Positions 7,964 through 19,047 of a stretch of 64,000 nt of DNA are shown here, one piece after another. The notes beneath the pieces were generated by a model. That model saw only the letters and a list, made by a program, of their open reading frames with translations. It was not told the DNA's origin and did no database searches. This stretch comes from Candidatus Omnitrophota bacterium (GTDB lineage Bacteria > Hinthialibacterota > Hinthialibacteria > Hinthialibacterales > JAKPRU01). The stretch is from contig JAKQSI010000051.1 of NCBI GenBank assembly GCA_029570205.1, positions 1-64,000 on the forward strand, in the 5' to 3' direction. Each line of letters opens with the position of its first letter. Within the stretch, counting starts at the first letter, position 1. Position numbers and translations under genes: made by a program.

Positions 7964-9154
7964 ATGTCTCGCGACAATTCGGAACCGACATACGCGCGGG
8001 AACAGGATCTTTTTGCGCAAGGCTATAAACGAATCGCCGGGTGTGACGAGGCGGGACGTGGTCCGCTGGCGGGACCGGTCGTGGCCGCTGCCGTGGTTCT
8101 ACCGACCGACCTGCAACCCCACTTGGTTCATGGTTTGCGGGATTCCAAACAGCTGACCGAGCCACAACGTGATCACTTCTATCCCATTATCATGGACCTG
8201 GCCGTCTCCTATGGCGTGGGAACCGCCGGCCCCAGGGAGATCGATGAATACAACATCCTGCAAGCTTCCCTTCTCGCAATGAAACGCGCCGTGGAACACC
8301 TGGACCTCCCCCCCGATTATGTCCTCGTTGATGGCAACAAAGCTCCTTCTCTCGGAGGGATTCCGGTAGAGTGCATCATCGGTGGAGACAAACGTTCGTT
8401 CAGTATCGCCGCGGCTTCTATCGTGGCCAAAGTGGTTCGAGACCGCATCATGAATTCCTACCACCAGCGGTTTCCGCAATACGGCTTTGATGCGCACAAG
8501 GGCTATCCGACAAAATATCACCGTGCGGCCCTGGAGGTATTCGGCGCGTCGGAGATTCACCGAATGACCTTCGCCGGTGTATCGGACCATCTTCTGGCCG
8601 CTGTGCCCGGCTCTACATTTGACTGCCTGTATCGACGGTTCGCCGCGCGGTTGACTTTGCAAAAAATGGAGCAACTGCGAAAGGATATTCTCAAAGCACA
8701 CGGACTCACGGAAGCGGAGTTTTTTGTCCTTCGATACCGCTGTGAACATCTCCTGGAAAGCCTTCGGCAACAGGCCATCGATCTGCGACCCAGCACACGG
8801 GAAATGGGAGATGCCAAAGAAACCCTGGCCGCACAATTCCTGGAAACCAAAGGATACAAAATCTGGGAACGCAACTTCCGACGCCGTCGCGGTGAGATTG
8901 ATATCATCGCCAACAAGGACGACCTGATCGTGTTTGTGGAAGTAAAATCACGCACCGGCGAGACATTCGGACAGCCGTTTCAGGCAGTGACAAAGAGAAA
9001 ACAACAGACCCTCGTTCGGATGGCGGAGATATACCTCGCTCAGCGGGGACTTCAGGACGATTGGAACGTCCGCTTCGATGTCATCTCCATCCTGGAGCGC
9101 GAAGGCGAGCCTCCCCGAATGGAGCACATCGAAAACGCCTTCCGCGTCGATTGA
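7964..9154 (+). CDS. rnhB: Ribonuclease HII fused to YraN-type nuclease domain
   Basis: A 396-aa two-domain protein. Residues ~20-215 are RNase HII, which removes ribonucleotides and RNA primers from DNA:RNA hybrids; the catalytic acids are D28-E29 (G-C-D-E-A-G-R-G), D123 (V-D-G-N) and D142 (G-G-D-K-R-S). A helical linker spans ~220-280. Residues ~281-396 form a YraN/UPF0102 domain of the restriction-endonuclease fold, with G-E-I-D-I-I-A at 310-316 and V-F-V-E-V-K-S-R at 323-330 (E326-x-K328). The two are separate neighbouring genes in many bacteria. No internal stop, ribosome-binding site or frameshift separates them here. The N-terminus is a few residues longer than usual; ATG 7964 is the first in frame. 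Confidence 0.92.
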   Translation: MSRDNSEPTYAREQDLFAQGYKRIAGCDEAGRGPLAGPVVAAAVVLPTDLQPHLVHGLRDSKQLTEPQRDHFYPIIMDLAVSYGVGTAGPREIDEYNILQASLLAMKRAVEHLDLPPDYVLVDGNKAPSLGGIPVECIIGGDKRSFSIAAASIVAKVVRDRIMNSYHQRFPQYGFDAHKGYPTKYHRAALEVFGASEIHRMTFAGVSDHLLAAVPGSTFDCLYRRFAARLTLQKMEQLRKDILKAHGLTEAEFFVLRYRCEHLLESLRQQAIDLRPSTREMGDAKETLAAQFLETKGYKIWERNFRRRRGEIDIIANKDDLIVFVEVKSRTGETFGQPFQAVTKRKQQTLVRMAEIYLAQRGLQDDWNVRFDVISILEREGEPPRMEHIENAFRVD

Positions 9155-10892: not shown

Positions 10893-12920
10893 TTACGGCC
10901 TGAGATCTTCCCGCTTGTAATACATGAATCCGCCGGTTTCCTCTCCGACAATCAAATCCGGCCCGTTTGGTCCGCCGAAATCGGCAACCGCCGGTCCACA
11001 GGCGTGCTGCCCAAGGAAAATCGGAGAGCCTCGAAACTCGAATAACACAGGAAACTTGAACATCGGTTGAGTATCGGAGCCGACATTCTTCAGAAACAGA
11101 ACAGCCGATCCCGGCAAGCCCAGTGACTGGGGCAGGCCGGTCTTGGGATTCGGGACAGAACCATGTCGCGGCGTACCGACAATCAGGTCAGTACGCCCAT
11201 CCCGATCCCAATCGAACAGATTCAGTTTCAATCGCCCCGTTCCACCCGCAGCAAGGAAATTCGCTCGAATCGTGGAACCGTCATCGAGACGCAGCTTTCC
11301 CCCATCCTCCACATTGTAATCATCCACCCGCCAGTAGAGATGAAATTCGTCATGTTCGTCCAGGGCCACATACGCCATGCGGTCGCCCAGCCTTGCCACG
11401 GCGGGTTTGACCCGCCAGGTCCCGTACAAATCGAGGCCGTCGTAATAGATCGGATGTCCGAAATCCAATTTCGGCTCCGTACGTGTTCCTCGGTTGAGAA
11501 ACACCGTGTGACGCGCTGTGCTGTCGCTCATCAGGATGTCCAACAGACCATCCTCGTTCCAATCGGCCACCGTGGGGCAGGTATAGCCCCATCGCGCTTC
11601 GCCCGGTCCCTGAATATCCATCCGATATCCGGGCTGGATGTGGATCACTTGCCCGCCCGCGGTGATCGGCTCGCCCGGAAGAAAGGCGGGGTTCGCATTG
11701 CTTCCCGCATTCCGAAAAAAGAGTACTCTTCCTTCCGAATTGCCCGAAACAATATCCATCGCGCCGTCCCCATTCCAATCCACTACATTCGCAACCGGCA
11801 AAGAGCCTCCGTAAAGCGTTGCCTTTTCCTGAAAAACCGGCCTCGGATCTTCATAGATTGGATTACCCTGCTCGGTAAACAACCCCGCGAATCGGTAATA
11901 ATATAGCGCCCCTTCCCCGCCCGCAATCAGGTCGGAAAAACCGGTCCCTGGATTGGGATAGGCGACGGGACTGGGATTAATGATCGGGTGCCGGTGTGCA
12001 TTTCCATCCGCCCGAACAATGAACCGCTTCCGATCGAGGTCCACACCTTTTTCCGCGCTATTGTGATAATAATAGAGTCCGCCGAATGTGGAGCCTCCAA
12101 TCAAATCGCGAAATCGTTCCGAACCAAGATTCACTATCGTGAGGGTGCAATAGGAATGCCGCACTTCCTTTGTGGTTTTTGACACCAGACGAGGTTCGGA
12201 TGCCGGTCCTTTCAACAGCCCCGGCAGGGTCACAGCATACAGAGCCTGATACGGATATCCACCCCGCCACAGTCCCGCGCCATCAAATGGATTGTACTTT
12301 GGATCTCGACCGCCATAATCTGCCGGCCCGAAAGGTATTCCGTCCCCAATCCCCAGGAAGAGTTCCACGCTTCCGTCAGGATTCATCAAAACCGCAACTT
12401 CACCGGGATTTCTCGGCAGGCCGGATATTTTGACTTTCTCCAATTCCGTAAAGGTTCGTTTTTCCGCGTCAAAAACCCTATGGACCAACGTGGAGCCGTC
12501 GATCCAAACGCCGTGAATGGCTTTGTCCTCCGTCTGGAAAACTGTTCCCGATCCGGTATAGGAGCCTTCGATGGAAATGGGTTGCCCAAACACCGGCGCG
12601 CCGTTTTCCGTGCAGCAAGTCCATGGATACAGAAACAGGCGGTTATATTTTCCTTTCTGATTTGCATACCAGCCACGGCCGATCACAAATAAATCCGCCC
12701 GTTCGGAACCGAGAACAAAAGCCGACCCGACCGGCTCCTGCGAAAGCCCGGCGGAAAATGGCCCCCACCCGTCAACAGTCCCCACCGGAACCGGCTCGCC
12801 GCTTATCAGAAAGGGAATGCCCTGTCGCGGTTCGGAACGGACCCCCGCAATGCCTGTGGCCAGAATGCACAGGGCCGGAATCAACACCCATCCTTTTCTC
12901 GCGGTTGTCACAGAAATCAC
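10893..12920 (-). CDS. Secreted FG-GAP/VCBS repeat protein
   Basis: A 675-aa exported protein made mostly of beta-propeller type FG-GAP repeats. Calcium-loop cores can be read several times: D-W-N-G-D-G-A-M-D, D-W-N-E-D-G-L-L-D and D-W-D-R-D-G-R-T-D, each followed by an I-V-x-G or I-L-M-S type strand. The N-terminus has a signal peptide (hydrophobic V-L-I-P-A-L-C-I-L-A). The start is GTG 12920, with AGGAGAG upstream; a second in-frame GTG at 12911 is possible. Such proteins bind ligands, cell surfaces or other proteins; no enzyme domain is seen. It follows another FG-GAP gene and two prepilin genes in the same direction. Confidence 0.8.
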   Translation of the reverse strand: MISVTTARKGWVLIPALCILATGIAGVRSEPRQGIPFLISGEPVPVGTVDGWGPFSAGLSQEPVGSAFVLGSERADLFVIGRGWYANQKGKYNRLFLYPWTCCTENGAPVFGQPISIEGSYTGSGTVFQTEDKAIHGVWIDGSTLVHRVFDAEKRTFTELEKVKISGLPRNPGEVAVLMNPDGSVELFLGIGDGIPFGPADYGGRDPKYNPFDGAGLWRGGYPYQALYAVTLPGLLKGPASEPRLVSKTTKEVRHSYCTLTIVNLGSERFRDLIGGSTFGGLYYYHNSAEKGVDLDRKRFIVRADGNAHRHPIINPSPVAYPNPGTGFSDLIAGGEGALYYYRFAGLFTEQGNPIYEDPRPVFQEKATLYGGSLPVANVVDWNGDGAMDIVSGNSEGRVLFFRNAGSNANPAFLPGEPITAGGQVIHIQPGYRMDIQGPGEARWGYTCPTVADWNEDGLLDILMSDSTARHTVFLNRGTRTEPKLDFGHPIYYDGLDLYGTWRVKPAVARLGDRMAYVALDEHDEFHLYWRVDDYNVEDGGKLRLDDGSTIRANFLAAGGTGRLKLNLFDWDRDGRTDLIVGTPRHGSVPNPKTGLPQSLGLPGSAVLFLKNVGSDTQPMFKFPVLFEFRGSPIFLGQHACGPAVADFGGPNGPDLIVGEETGGFMYYKREDLRP

Positions 12921-12982: not shown

Positions 12983-13044
12983 ATTTATTCTGCTCACGTC
13001 AGGCTCTTACCACCAGTAGGGTCCCGATCGTCTGACTCAGACCC

Positions 13045-14385
13045 TTAATGAAGAATCCAGGAATCCACAGCCGTATCGAGAGATGCTCCTGTGTATTCCA
13101 CAACATAAATTTCTTCGTCCCCTTCACCTTCTTCCGCCGATGCGCTGCGCATTCCGAAGATCAGGTCCACATAGCCGTCACCATCCAATGTACCCGGTTC
13201 GCCAAAGAAGGCCAGCGCCTCCGGCTCTTCGGGGATATCCACCAGCACGCGCATCGGGGTGAAATCTGCCGTGGTGAAAGAACCTTCCGGGCCGATATGA
13301 TCGGCGATAAAAATCTCCTCGTTATCACCTACATCATAGCCCCAAATAATGGACCCGCCCTTCTGTCCCGGTATTTTCGCATAGATCAATGTGTCGGGCC
13401 GGTCCCCTGTGGCAAAAACACCGCCCTCCTCATCCGTTGCATACGTGTCGGGACCCATTGCCTCATAAACACGGACGGTGTATACCCCCGCATCGGAAAC
13501 AATGATCTCCAGGGTCCCATTCCCATCCAAATCGCCCAAAGCAATCCACCCTTGAGTCGAATTGGTCGCGCTGGGATCGAAGGTCAGGTAAGATTCGATT
13601 CCGGGTTCCCCCACACCATCCCAACTCATAACAAGAACTACCTGGTTCAGAGCAAGCACAACCAGTTCCAGATCGCCGTCCCCATCAATGTCGGCTACGG
13701 GGGACAGGGCGGAAATTCCGTTTTCCACCGGAATGATTATGGGATCGGCATACGCGTTGCTCCCTGTCGATTCATAAATCACAAGGCTCCGATCCTCCGC
13801 ATTAACGGTACCGACGATGATTTCGTTCTTCCCATCCTGATCCCAATCCGCGACCTGGATCGCGCTTGGTCGAGTGTCGGTTGTGGCTTCGCCAAGAAGC
13901 CCGAGTTCCAAAACTGTACTGGGTTTGGGAGGCGGGTTTTGTCCCCCCGCAATCTGGCCTCCCGCAAGCCCCGGATCGAATTCATACGCCAAAACAACAT
14001 CATAGTCGTTCGTCTTTCCCGAATCGCCCACCACAATCTCCAGATAGCCGTCCCCATCCGAATCCCCAACCGCAAGCGGCCCGCGTTCGAGAACTTCATC
14101 CCCCAATCGCGGCGCGGCCCAGACCTGCGAATAACTGTCGTTGCCTGTGGACTCAAAAATGTAGATCGTATCCTGTTGGGAATTCCGACCGATTGCTACA
14201 AATTCTCGAAATCCGTCTTTATCGATGTCTACACCCGGAACAAAGGCATACGCATTCTGTCCGATATCCTGCTGAAACCGGATCTCCCAATTCGGTTCGA
14301 CAACCACCGGCGGATCGGCCGGTACCACCACCCCCATCCCCATGCCCGCAACAAGAATCAAGAATAACGAACACCGTCTATTCAT
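13045..14385 (-). CDS. Secreted FG-GAP repeat protein
   Basis: A 446-aa protein with a signal peptide (M-N-R-R-C-S-L-F-L-I-L-V-A-G) and at least six FG-GAP type calcium loops, among them D-I-D-K-D-G-F, D-S-D-G-D-G-Y-L-E, D-W-D-Q-D-G-K-N-E, D-I-D-G-D-G-D-L-E and D-L-D-G-N-G-T-L-E. Almost the whole mature protein is one propeller. Segments reading I-Y-E-S-T-G-S/N-x-A/S-Y recur three times between the loops. It starts at ATG 14385, 117 bases after the pilin-like gene, and is likely part of the same surface-protein transcript. No catalytic domain is visible. Confidence 0.8.
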   Translation of the reverse strand: MNRRCSLFLILVAGMGMGVVVPADPPVVVEPNWEIRFQQDIGQNAYAFVPGVDIDKDGFREFVAIGRNSQQDTIYIFESTGNDSYSQVWAAPRLGDEVLERGPLAVGDSDGDGYLEIVVGDSGKTNDYDVVLAYEFDPGLAGGQIAGGQNPPPKPSTVLELGLLGEATTDTRPSAIQVADWDQDGKNEIIVGTVNAEDRSLVIYESTGSNAYADPIIIPVENGISALSPVADIDGDGDLELVVLALNQVVLVMSWDGVGEPGIESYLTFDPSATNSTQGWIALGDLDGNGTLEIIVSDAGVYTVRVYEAMGPDTYATDEEGGVFATGDRPDTLIYAKIPGQKGGSIIWGYDVGDNEEIFIADHIGPEGSFTTADFTPMRVLVDIPEEPEALAFFGEPGTLDGDGYVDLIFGMRSASAEEGEGDEEIYVVEYTGASLDTAVDSWILH

Positions 14386-14502
14386 ATCAACTCTCTCCTT
14401 TCTGTCATTTATATTCCTTATGGAAGAATCCTTAATATCGCCTCGTCATATCCCTTTCTTTGAGCATTCCCGGCGCCGAACCGCAGAACCGTATCCGAAC
14501 GC

Positions 14503-15063
14503 CTATGGTCCATACCGCACAATATCTCCCGCGCTGGTTACCCCATTCGAGATGTCATACACAATATGGGTGTAATATCCTTCCATGGTGACGGCGCTGT
14601 TCACCTTGTCGGGGCCGAAGGACTTAATGAAATAGAGCGCATTCATCTCCTGTGAAGTCGGTCCCCACTTACTGGTGCTGAGTTGGCTCGTCTCCCGCTC
14701 AAAATACTCATAAACCGGCCCCCCCCAAATTGTCGGAATCTCCGCATCCCGCGCGAAAAAAGGATCGAACGGAACGGAAGACATATAGGCCACCGGCGTA
14801 GTCAGCTTGGCCCACCGTTCAAAGACGGATATTCGGGTGGTCCCGCCTTCCAGGGAGGCCGGTGGGTAGCGATTGTTGTCCAGCCGATAGGACTCCAATG
14901 CAACCGAAAGATTGCGCAAATCGGACTGCGCTCGGGAAACGCGGGCGCGCATCTGCGCATTCATGAAATTCGGAACCGCAATCGCCGCCAGAATCCCGAT
15001 AATCGCTACAACAATGAGCAACTCAATCAGTGTAAAAGCCTCTTCCTTACGTGTTTCCTTCAC
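14503..15063 (-). CDS. Prepilin-like protein (type IV pilin/pseudopilin)
   Basis: A 186-aa protein with a class III prepilin leader: a short charged start, then A-F-T-L-I-E-L-L-I-V-V-A-I-I-G-I-L, with cleavage predicted just before F and Glu at position +5 of the mature protein. It should be processed by a prepilin peptidase and assembled into a pilus or pseudopilus. The globular part is short, with Y-R-L-D-N-N-R-Y-P and V-A-Y-M-S-S-V-P-F-D-P segments, and it ends Y-D-I-S-N-G-V-T-S-A-G-D-I-V-R-Y-G-P. A paralogue lies 49 bases upstream. No pilus assembly ATPase or secretin is adjacent, although pilT lies 23 kb away. Confidence 0.88.
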   Translation of the reverse strand: MKETRKEEAFTLIELLIVVAIIGILAAIAVPNFMNAQMRARVSRAQSDLRNLSVALESYRLDNNRYPPASLEGGTTRISVFERWAKLTTPVAYMSSVPFDPFFARDAEIPTIWGGPVYEYFERETSQLSTSKWGPTSQEMNALYFIKSFGPDKVNSAVTMEGYYTHIVYDISNGVTSAGDIVRYGP

Positions 15064-15112
15064 AATCCATACCTCCGAAAAATACTGTTCTCCCCGTCAT
15101 TCCAATTCCGGA

Positions 15113-15691
15113 TCACGGACCGTACCGGACAATGTCTCCCGCACTCACAATCCCGTTGGACAGATCATACGGAACCATATCCTGCACACCCATCACCTCG
15201 CCGACCGTTTTCTGAAAATCCGGTCCGTACGACGCAATGAAATATAACTTGTTGACTCGCGGCCCTGCTTTATAAATATATCCCTCATCCTGCCATTCGA
15301 AATAATCGTAGTACGTCCCTCCCCATAAGGCAGCCAGTGCACGCGGATCCTGCGAAATATCCACAGGGAAAAACGGATCAAGCGGAATGGAAGCCATATA
15401 CGCCACCGGCGTAGTCAGCATGGCATATCGCTTGTAAACCGGCAATCGAGTCCCTGGCACTTCATCTTTCGGCGGATAATGCGCCTGATCAATCCGATAC
15501 ATCTCCAGAGCGTTAGAAACATTCCGCTCTTCTTCCATCGCCCGTGTGACCTTGGCGCGCATTCGGGCATTCATGAAATTCGGCACCGCCATCGCCGCCA
15601 GAATCCCGATAATCGCCACAACAATCAGTAACTCGATTAACGTGAACGCCGCCCTATTTCCGCTTGAACGAAATCTTCTGTTCCAAAACAT
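15113..15691 (-). CDS. Prepilin-like protein, paralogue
   Basis: A 192-aa protein from ATG 15691. The leader reads M-F-W-N-R-R-F-R-S-S-G-N-R-A-A and is followed by the F-T-L-I-E-L-L-I-V-V-A-I-I-G prepilin helix. It shares with its downstream neighbour the R-M-R-A-K/R-V helix continuation, the V-A-Y-M-A-S-I-P-L-D-P segment and a C-terminal S-N-G-I-V-S-A-G-D-I-V-R-Y-G-P. ATG codons at 15718 and 15700 are also in frame; 15691 was preferred since AAGGGATGGGAAAG precedes it and the leader length becomes normal. Its promoter probably lies in the palindrome at 15808-15848. Confidence 0.85.
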   Translation of the reverse strand: MFWNRRFRSSGNRAAFTLIELLIVVAIIGILAAMAVPNFMNARMRAKVTRAMEEERNVSNALEMYRIDQAHYPPKDEVPGTRLPVYKRYAMLTTPVAYMASIPLDPFFPVDISQDPRALAALWGGTYYDYFEWQDEGYIYKAGPRVNKLYFIASYGPDFQKTVGEVMGVQDMVPYDLSNGIVSAGDIVRYGP

Positions 15692-15807
15692 CTTTCCCAT
15701 CCCTTGAAATACAGCCATTCCAAAACTCGAACACGTAGATCAATTGCTGGATCTAACGCATTCCATAGCCAACACGCATCACCTGTCAGAGACAGAACAA
15801 TTCTACC

Positions 15808-15848
15808 TTGACAACACTAATATATCACTGATATGTTAGATCTGTCAA
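15808..15848. promoter_or_regulatory. 41-bp palindromic operator with divergent promoters
   Basis: The segment is symmetric about 15828: TTGACA (15808-15813) mirrors TGTCAA (15843-15848), and CTAATATAT (15817-15825) mirrors ATATGTTAG (15831-15839) with one mismatch. Each outer arm is also a perfect -35 box. On the plus strand TTGACA is followed after 18 bases by TATGTT; on the minus strand it is followed after 18 bases by TATATT (15824-15819). The plus promoter would serve the GntR gene at 15889, the minus one the pilin/FG-GAP genes. The inner palindrome is suited to a dimeric regulator such as the adjacent GntR protein. Confidence 0.75.
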
Positions 15849-15888
15849 CCCTGGAAATTATCCCTTATCAATACGGTTTCTTACTCAA

Positions 15889-16671
15889 ATGAGCCTGCAA
15901 AAACAAGCGTATCGATTCATCCGCCAGCGCATTCTCAGCGGAGATATCCCACCCGGTAAACAGGTTTCCGAGTATTCCCTGTCAAGAGAATTAGGCTTGG
16001 GAAGAACACCGGTGCGAGAAGCCATTTCCCGCCTTCAACTGGAGGGATATGTGGAGCGGATTCCGCGATTTGGGACCATCGTTCGTCAACCATCCGCGAA
16101 GGATATAGAGGATCTGTACGAGTTGCGCGTCGCGCTGGAAAGTTACGCGGCCAATGAGGCGGCCATTCATGCAACAAAAGAGGATATCGAACATCTGCGA
16201 CAGCTATGCGAAGACCTCCAGCAGATTCGTCGGGAACACGAACTTTCCGGGACGCGTTTTCTTTCTCCCGAAGCGCTCCGGCATTTTCGCGCTACCGATA
16301 TGAGCTTTCACATCCACCTCATCCGCATCACCGGCAATACACGGATCATGCAACTCGTGACCGAAAGTCAGGTCTTGACCCGGGTGTTCTGCAACCTCAT
16401 CCCCCATCAGGATTCCAACAGCATTCTCAGCGCCTATTACTATCACAGCGAGGTTCTGAAGGCCGTGGAGGAGTCGAATTCTGACAAGGCCCGTACTCTC
16501 ATGATCGAGCATATCCGAAAAAGTGAAGCCGGTACTGTGGAAAACCTCCGTCGATCCCTTCAACAGCAGATGCCGGCGGGATCGCGAGAGTTCGGACTGC
16601 CCGCTGAACTCGCGGAGGACCTTTTCCGAATCGAACAGACACTCCGGGAAAATTCAAAAACCACAGGCTGA
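15889..16671 (+). CDS. GntR family regulator, FadR/FCD subgroup
   Basis: A 260-aa DNA-binding repressor or activator. Residues ~1-70 form the GntR winged helix (A-Y-R-F-I-R-Q-R-I-L-S-G-D-I-P-P-G and L-G-L-G-R-T-P-V-R-E-A-I-S-R-L), and residues ~85-225 an all-helical FCD effector domain (Y-E-L-R-V-A-L-E-S-Y-A near 85, F-H-I-H-L-I near 140). FCD proteins usually bind small carboxylates or sugar acids, often with a metal held by Asp/His residues. It sits 40 bases after a 41-bp palindrome with promoters in both directions, so self-regulation and control of the divergent pilin operon are both plausible. The effector is unknown. Confidence 0.9.
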   Translation: MSLQKQAYRFIRQRILSGDIPPGKQVSEYSLSRELGLGRTPVREAISRLQLEGYVERIPRFGTIVRQPSAKDIEDLYELRVALESYAANEAAIHATKEDIEHLRQLCEDLQQIRREHELSGTRFLSPEALRHFRATDMSFHIHLIRITGNTRIMQLVTESQVLTRVFCNLIPHQDSNSILSAYYYHSEVLKAVEESNSDKARTLMIEHIRKSEAGTVENLRRSLQQQMPAGSREFGLPAELAEDLFRIEQTLRENSKTTG

Positions 16672-17118
16672 ACTTCAACCCGGAAGTTCCGACGAATAAC
16701 TCCGAATAACAAGCGGTTCCCCCTGCCGATGAACTGGCAACCTTGTATCCGGTCTCCCTACCCCAAGTGTGTTTTCTGCGCCCGTCCCGATTTGGCCCGC
16801 TGCGGACCGGCACAATCGACCTGATTGCAAACGGAAGAGCGATCATGGACTGTCCCACCTTACATGCCGCCCGGCGCAAAAAACTGTGCGCAGAACCGCC
16901 GCGGCAGGGGCATGTGTTTGTCTCCGGTTCCCTCACGGATACGCACCCTCACCGGCGGAACAAACCTCACCGCCAGGCAAAAATACGGTAATTCACCCTG
17001 CCCCGGGAGCCGGATCAGATTCGGTATCCTGTGCGACAAGAAAAGCAAACTGTTCCGGCTGCCGAGCACACAGACCAGTGCGAGGGGCAAGATATCTCCG
17101 CTCCCGGTGAGGTCGTCA
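16672..17118. other. 447-base gap, nothing recognised
   Basis: The space between the GntR gene and the convergent DUF115 gene is GC-rich and open in several frames on both strands, but none of the frames has a convincing ribosome-binding site, a family-like sequence or biased composition. No tRNA-like cloverleaf or strong terminator was noticed. It may be decayed coding sequence or a 3' untranslated region. Confidence 0.4.
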
Positions 17119-19047
17119 TCACCTCAATTCGCTTGACATCTCCCGCGCCACCTCGTCCAGCAGATCGATAAAACAGGTCAGCACAGAGTACATTTCCGTA
17201 AGAATATACTGGTACTTGGCATACATACACTCCAGGAACGCTTTCGGGCTGGGGTCCGCAGGCCGGTCGGCCTGCTGACGGCGGTAGTAGAGATAAGTCA
17301 CGGAGGTATCCAGAAACACATTGAACAACGGATCGCGCAGCATTTCCTGCCACAAATCCTCCAGTCGATCCCATTCGGACTGCACCAATTGCGCGCCGGG
17401 CGGGACTCCGCGATACAGCTCCGGCCACTTGGCGATGTGCGCCAATGCCTTCACGCAAATCCGCCGGGAGTTCAACAGTACCTCCTGCCCCCTGCGCAAT
17501 TCGCGAACCAGCGGGGCGGGGTCTCGAGGCGGCAACGGCGCGTGAAAAGGCTCCCAAAACCGAGTAATATCCGACGCCGGGTCAAGAGCATCAACCACCT
17601 CTCGAAGCGGCCGGTTGATTGCACCCTCTTTTCGTGAACCGCCCTCGGTAGCGTCGATCACCTCTCGCCCGCAATCCCGGATGTTCTGTTCCAGGTCCTT
17701 AATGTACTGCTTGAATGACACCGTAGTGGGAACCGGGTCTCCATAGTATCCCGGCACGAACACGAGATTCCCCGCTTCGGCGCTCGCTCTCCCTTCTTTT
17801 CCGCCGACTACGGTAAACCCATCCTCGCGCACCGCCGATGTTGTACGCGAGACCGCCGCATCCCGCGCGTGAGTCATCCCGCCGCTCAAAGGAAACGCAA
17901 AATCCATCCCCACCAGCACAATCGGATCGCACCCCAGGTGGACCGCCACATTGAACGCAATCTGCCCCACATTCATCCCGCGTTTGACACTTCCCACCTC
18001 TCCAAGAATATCCCCCAGCGCATCCCGCAGATATTTCAGAAAATTGCCCTGCTCATCCACCAGGGGAAAGAAAAACCTGTGTGCGGGATACTTGCGCGCA
18101 ATCCCGAAATAACATTCCGGGTGAAATGCGAGAATGGCATTTTTCAGATCAGAAACCTTCTCAAAGTGGCTGAAATTGAGCTCGGTGGGGTCCGCCGCGC
18201 AAACCAGATGCGGCTCGATTCCATGACGAGCCAGCGTGTTCTGGCTTGTGTCCACGGCGATTATCAGTCCCCGATTGCCGACCCGCTTCAATTCCTCGAT
18301 GTTCCTGTCCAGCGAGGGTCCCGCCGCGACAACAAAACCCGGCAGTCCTTTCGCCGCGTCTCGATACTCCGAGGGCATCCGCCCGCGCCAGAACGCGCAA
18401 AGGTTCTTTAATACATTGGTTTGATTCCGATGTCGATGATCGAGCACCGTCTTAGTGTTGACGCCATCGTAGGTTGCGGCCTCCACAATCTGACGGGCCA
18501 CTTCCATGTAATAACCCGGATTCAGCTGCTGCGATGGCTTGTGATGAAGAATCTTGAAATTATGTACCATGAATCCGGTCCGAAGCGGCCTTAATAAATC
18601 CGGAAAATCTTCGGGTTTCTCCGCCACAAAACAATAGCAGGTGTCTGATGCCAGCAGGCGGCGCAGATCCATTGCGGTCAGCGCCAGGCGAAAAAGGTGC
18701 GGATCGTATTCCACCAGTGTGATACTGCGGGCATGAGACCCGAATCGTTCCAGATACGCCCGAACGTGGTATCCGAGACCCACTCCCAGGAAAAGAAGAT
18801 GGATAGCCGAGGAAACCGGATCGTTCTCGGCCCAGCGCTGCGCCTCCCGGAGAGGATCGTACAGACTGCAAAGCGCGCGGGGATCTCCGCCATCGGGGGG
18901 ACAATAGCGCAATGCCGCGAATTGATTCTTTGCGGGAACCAACTCCAGATAAGGGGGAAGCTGCGGATTCAGACCCGCTATTCGGTCCGCTAACGCGGGA
19001 TTTCGCGTCCGCAACGCCTCCAGGTTGGAATCGAGAAATGAGGGCAT
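17119..19047 (-). CDS. DUF115/Maf-like protein, possible flagellin glycosyltransferase
   Basis: A 642-aa cytosolic protein with the DUF115 (MptE-like) core, seen as G-F-V-V-A-A-G-P-S-L-D-R-N-I-E-E-L-K near residue 240 and D-P-I-V-L-V-G-M-D-F-A-F near 385. The N-terminal region (residues ~90-150) contains a Rossmann-like L-F-L-G-V-G-L-G-Y-H-V. Motility-associated factors of this build transfer pseudaminic or legionaminic acids to flagellin in Campylobacter, Aeromonas and others. It is the last gene of the flagellar stator run, beginning 13 bases after motB, which supports a motility role, but no flagellin is in the window. ATG 19047 was chosen over TTG 19059, which abuts the motB stop, because GGAATTACC precedes it. 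Confidence 0.8.
   Translation of the reverse strand: MPSFLDSNLEALRTRNPALADRIAGLNPQLPPYLELVPAKNQFAALRYCPPDGGDPRALCSLYDPLREAQRWAENDPVSSAIHLLFLGVGLGYHVRAYLERFGSHARSITLVEYDPHLFRLALTAMDLRRLLASDTCYCFVAEKPEDFPDLLRPLRTGFMVHNFKILHHKPSQQLNPGYYMEVARQIVEAATYDGVNTKTVLDHRHRNQTNVLKNLCAFWRGRMPSEYRDAAKGLPGFVVAAGPSLDRNIEELKRVGNRGLIIAVDTSQNTLARHGIEPHLVCAADPTELNFSHFEKVSDLKNAILAFHPECYFGIARKYPAHRFFFPLVDEQGNFLKYLRDALGDILGEVGSVKRGMNVGQIAFNVAVHLGCDPIVLVGMDFAFPLSGGMTHARDAAVSRTTSAVREDGFTVVGGKEGRASAEAGNLVFVPGYYGDPVPTTVSFKQYIKDLEQNIRDCGREVIDATEGGSRKEGAINRPLREVVDALDPASDITRFWEPFHAPLPPRDPAPLVRELRRGQEVLLNSRRICVKALAHIAKWPELYRGVPPGAQLVQSEWDRLEDLWQEMLRDPLFNVFLDTSVTYLYYRRQQADRPADPSPKAFLECMYAKYQYILTEMYSVLTCFIDLLDEVAREMSSELR

Follow-up and report, generated by a model that had tools for sequence, protein, structure and literature searches.

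The window, the whole 64,000-nucleotide stretch of DNA analysed here, contains a short symmetric element in the spacer between the gene of a GntR-family regulator and two divergently oriented genes of pilin-like proteins. The question raised by this locus is whether the element is an operator of the regulator, a pair of promoters, or both at once.

A symmetric element in the spacer

The element, TTGACAACACTAATATATCACTGATATGTTAGATCTGTCAA, occupies positions 15808-15848 within the 170-bp spacer 15719-15888, belongs to neither strand in particular, and has its centre of symmetry at C15828. About this base 16 of the 20 pairs of arm positions are complementary, which is the best 41-bp symmetry anywhere in the window. 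When the 170-bp intergenic region was shuffled 2000 times with its dinucleotides preserved, one shuffle reached the same degree of pairing. The 41-bp palindrome of the preliminary description is thus real, but it is not perfect. Four pairs are mismatched: three at 15814-15816/15840-15842 and one, a T/G mismatch, in the inner part.

The inner palindrome, CTAATATATCACTGATATGTTAG, likewise strandless, spans 15817-15839 and pairs at 10 of 11 positions. The preliminary description had proposed a search for this motif at other loci; no second copy is present in the genome, even when three mismatches are allowed. In the three genomes searched, the core was found at no place other than the orthologous locus at the same tolerance. 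When the outer arms alone were used as the query, all matches apart from this locus and its orthologue in a second genome lacked a comparable inner symmetry. Elsewhere in the same spacer, GATCTAAC at 15750-15757 is an inverted copy of GTTAGATC at 15835-15842, the edge of the palindrome. The two copies are 85 bp apart and unchanged in the second genome; the repeat could be a second half-site or a product of chance.

Two probable promoters nested on opposite strands

As the preliminary description had it, both outer arms are perfect TTGACA boxes, each accompanied at a distance of 18 bases by a -10-like hexamer. The rightward predicted promoter (15808-15837, forward strand), which leads to the GntR gene, consists of a -35 box at 15808-15813, an 18-bp spacer, a TG at 15829-15830 and the -10 hexamer TATGTT at 15832-15837. 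The leftward predicted promoter (15819-15848, reverse strand), which leads to the pilin genes, has its -35 box at 15848-15843, an 18-bp spacer, a TG at 15827-15826 and the -10 hexamer TATATT at 15824-15819. On both strands the TG lies one base ahead of the hexamer, giving the extended -10 elements TGaTATGTT (rightward) and TGaTATATT (leftward). Transcription would start near 15844 in the rightward and near 15812 in the leftward direction, and the predicted starts, extrapolated from the -10 positions, are about 32 bp apart.

If the host phylum is assumed to use the sigma-70 consensus, the leftward promoter matches it at 11 of 12 positions and the rightward promoter at 10 of 12. In a window-wide scan the leftward site shares the top rank, and among the 22 best promoter matches in the window these two sites are the only ones that are TG-extended. 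The window contains no tRNA genes against which the promoter matches could be calibrated, and no clear Shine-Dalgarno sequence is seen ahead of the start of the GntR gene. A -35 box and a -10 hexamer at an allowed spacing are found on both strands of the same DNA, as is required of divergent promoters, and each -10 hexamer is nested within the 18-bp spacer of the opposite strand.

Judged from these sequence elements, 15808-15848 is probably a compact pair of divergent promoters nested on opposite strands. One promoter would drive the two pilin-like genes leftward and the other would drive the GntR/FCD regulator gene rightward. With both promoters in use, RNA polymerase would occupy the element in one orientation at a time. 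Two polymerases could hardly be accommodated on the site together, and, as the polymerase would be limited to one orientation at a time, the two directions would compete. If a symmetric regulator occupied the centre, both directions would be silenced. The simplest candidate for such a regulator is the divergently encoded GntR protein, which would act on its own gene and on the pilin genes. A repressor is perhaps superimposed on this exclusive binding of polymerase.

The locus in related genomes

In a scan of contigs for close homologues only one was close, contig JAKPRU010000914.1 of the congeneric genome G002, labelled Candidatus Omnitrophota, in which the gene arrangement is the same and the GntR protein is 97% identical. 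Two predicted divergent promoters on one symmetric element, with the GntR/FCD gene on one side and the pilin and FG-GAP genes on the other, are seen here much as they had been described, and G002 retains both promoters. All 26 bases of 15817-15842 are unchanged in G002, and in the rest of the spacer, beyond the 41 bp, 18 of 129 positions differ, including a three-base gap. The difference in conservation between the core and the surrounding spacer corresponds to a Fisher p of 0.03, and that for the entire 41 bp to p = 0.20. This is weak evidence, because the comparison involves only two orthologous spacers in a region that is 94% identical overall.

One of the substitutions in G002 falls in an outer arm, where TGTCAA has become AGTCAA, so that the leftward -35 box reads TTGACT and matches at five of six positions. 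The change loses symmetry and keeps a -35 box, as would be expected of outer arms that are -35 boxes and not arms of an operator. Among 14 genomes of the class, searched with one mismatch allowed, the nested geometry of promoter elements occurs only here and at the orthologous site of G002; the reversed pattern, used as a control, gave one hit, in G006.

A third congener, G001, possesses orthologues of both pilins, the first of them 91% identical, and upstream of them an FG-GAP-like gene recognized from its translation. A motif search of G001 did not find the palindrome, and an orthologue of the GntR gene is present neither at the pilin locus nor next to the MptE-like gene of G001, whose counterpart in the window follows the GntR gene in convergent orientation. 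The palindrome and the GntR gene are therefore both present in two genomes and both absent from the third. This joint absence is weak evidence of a connection between them, because it amounts to one rearrangement. In the window these two convergent genes, GntR and MptE-like, are separated by about 450 bp (16672-17118) that contain no convincing gene and coincide with a rearrangement breakpoint relative to G001.

The genes on either side

The rightward gene (15889-16671, forward strand) encodes a protein of 260 amino acids, P0001, with a GntR winged helix (PF00392, 58.7 bits) and an FCD domain (PF07729, 73.4 bits), both above the Pfam cut-offs. This combination places it in the FadR subfamily of GntR regulators; no NCBIfam equivalog matched it above cut-off. 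The protein can be aligned with the solved FCD proteins 7xp0 and 3fms, and its residues D137, H141, H186 and H208 align with the D/H/H/H set of 3fms, which we take to be the metal ligands of that protein. The four residues are thus likely the FCD metal ligands of P0001. The earlier suggestion that the regulator responds to a small carboxylate or sugar acid is a guess at the level of the family, and the alignment does not allow a particular ligand to be named.

The first leftward gene (15113-15718, reverse strand) and the second (14503-15063, reverse strand) encode GspG-like pilin-like proteins, both with an N-terminal methylation motif. They are followed downstream by two genes of FG-GAP repeat proteins (13045-14385 and 10893-12920, both on the reverse strand). 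Farther along, at 7964-9154, one open frame seems from its translation to consist of a ribonuclease HII-like part fused to a YraN-like nuclease part.

Pilin-like matches number 50 in this genome, 97 in G001 and 29 in the fragmented G002. To call the locus a switch for surface structures, as was done initially, overstates the sequence, because the genome holds about 50 such pilin-like matches of the same kind. Across the order, each of the genomes G000-G008 has roughly 30-100 matches to the GspG-like pilin, a remarkable expansion. A general linkage of GntR and pilin genes in the group was considered and rejected, as no clear divergent linkage exists around ten other GntR-like genes. The pilin motif was flagged by a crude ORF caller 3-4 kb away from two of these ten, and a separate listing of matches places pilins near two more GntR-like genes.

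Operator or promoters alone

An operator of the regulator is compatible with the promoter pair and would be added to it. How much symmetry is left for such an operator depends on how much the promoters explain. The -35 boxes, the TG motifs and the -10 hexamers cover most of the matching pairs. By hand count, six pairs lie outside the promoter elements, and three of these match (15817/15839, 15818/15838 and 15825/15831) where 1.5 would be expected at random. As this is no significant surplus, the symmetry alone does not demand an operator. The inner palindrome can be read as two facing extended -10 elements, which yield most of its symmetry.

It is possible, though less likely than not, that there is no repressor site at all. 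The symmetry would then result from two overlapping promoters, and any regulation would consist of competition between the two orientations of the polymerase. Mutually exclusive binding at bidirectional promoters is indeed common (PMC12825309; PMC10268837). However, GntR genes are frequently autoregulated and divergently placed, and the single central base placed exactly between the two TGs, together with the extra CT/AG pairs, exceeds the symmetry that promoters require.

The addition of an operator is comparably conceivable and equally short of being the expected outcome. According to this proposal a dimer of the GntR/FCD protein binds CTAAYATATCA-C-TGATATRTTAG and, until it is released by a small ligand, keeps the pilin genes as well as its own gene repressed. 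The family usually has one symmetric site in the interval that separates the FadR-subfamily gene from a divergent operon (PMC4494728), as is seen here. All 23 bp of the core are conserved, and the genome contains no second copy of it, as would be expected of a purely local regulator. The co-occurrence of palindrome and gene in two genomes and their joint absence from a third point in the same direction, but that absence is a single rearrangement, and the facing extended -10 elements already explain most of the inner symmetry.

The binding code of the family also argues against such an operator. Members of the FadR subfamily recognize the consensus TKGT/ACMA, in which GT and AC are separated by 2-3 bases, and members that depart from this code exist (PMC4494728). 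The palindrome contains no TKGT-N2/3-ACMA box and so lacks the operator signature of the subfamily. The sole GT-N2-AC in the spacer, CTGTCAACCC at 15842, overlaps the palindrome's edge and is not retained in G002. Four proteins (L004, L006, L007 and L008) are among the closest homologues outside the genus, with 29-34% identity, and their genes carry CTGTATACAG, TTGTATACAA, TTGTATACAT or TTGTTTACAA upstream. These are GTATAC/GTTTAC boxes and sit 48-76 bp before the matched start; nothing resembling the palindrome was found upstream of any of the distant GntR homologues compared. The recognition helix RTPVREA of P0001 is found unaltered in two of the four, and the other two have RTPIREA and RGPIREA. 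By this code the preferred site of P0001 should be of the GTATAC type, which is missing from this spacer. The initial proposal that a GntR dimer binds here is thus at best partly supported. Binding of P0001 to the palindrome may nevertheless occur, because the family includes exceptions to the code.

A more specific arrangement appears unlikely: a GntR/FCD protein with a conventional helix would use the unconventional operator CTAAYATATCA-N-TGATATRTTAG, fused with both -10 elements, as a one-site switch of pilin-like genes. Repressor and polymerase in either orientation would then compete for the same 41 bp.

A different regulator might bind the palindrome in place of the neighbouring GntR protein, but this is quite improbable. 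The poor fit to the GntR code would agree with such a regulator, as would the 11-bp centre TATCACTGATA at 15823-15833, which has the same sequence as the tet operator core (tetO2). However, no candidate gene was identified, and the match is short and partly a product of the two TGATAT sequences of the -10 elements, so that the identity is probably a coincidence arising from them.

A mobile-element end, a recombination site or an RNA hairpin or terminator is scarcely credible and largely refuted: the palindrome can fold (z = -3.0), but it is present as a single copy in the genome, no terminator was called in the spacer, there is no Rfam match within 13000-19000, and, with nearly all of the palindrome upstream of both expected starts, the hairpin would be missing from the predicted transcripts.

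Relation to known divergent promoters

The closest known kind of element is the bidirectional promoter described by Warman, Grainger and colleagues, in which pseudo-symmetric DNA binds RNA polymerase in either orientation, one at a time (PMC12825309, PMC10268837), as is proposed here. One of these, PacrA/acrR, separates a regulator gene from the operon that the regulator controls (PMC12825309, PMC10268837), and the present element is likewise situated between a regulator gene and divergent genes. Bidirectional promoters share one -10 element, whereas this locus has two separate TG-extended -10 elements and two perfect -35 boxes. Their starts are mostly 18 bp apart and 7-25 bp by definition (PMC10268837); the roughly 32 bp predicted here is outside that range, which suggests a nested variant and not a member of the class with a shared -10.

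The locus also resembles the divergons of the FadR subfamily (PMC4494728), in which the regulator gene is divergent from a structural operon and one symmetric element is located in a short spacer. It differs from them in lacking TKGT-N2/3-ACMA boxes, in the off-centre position of the element, which lies about 60 bp from the regulator gene and about 110 bp from the pilin gene, and in that its neighbours are pilin and FG-GAP genes and not catabolic ones.

In the tetR/tetA system of Tn10 a palindromic operator overlaps divergent promoters. The element described here shares this overlap and the 11-bp centre, the latter taken as a coincidence; it differs in being one element instead of two and in having a GntR/FCD neighbour, not TetR.

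As a gene switch the locus is ordinary in kind and leaves the picture of GntR switches much as it was. If the promoter pair is correctly read, the locus would be a clean, minimal natural case of two full extended -10 promoters in one symmetric 41-bp element, with a spacing unlike that usual for bidirectional promoters. Polymerase competition and repression would then be measurable on a single short piece of DNA.
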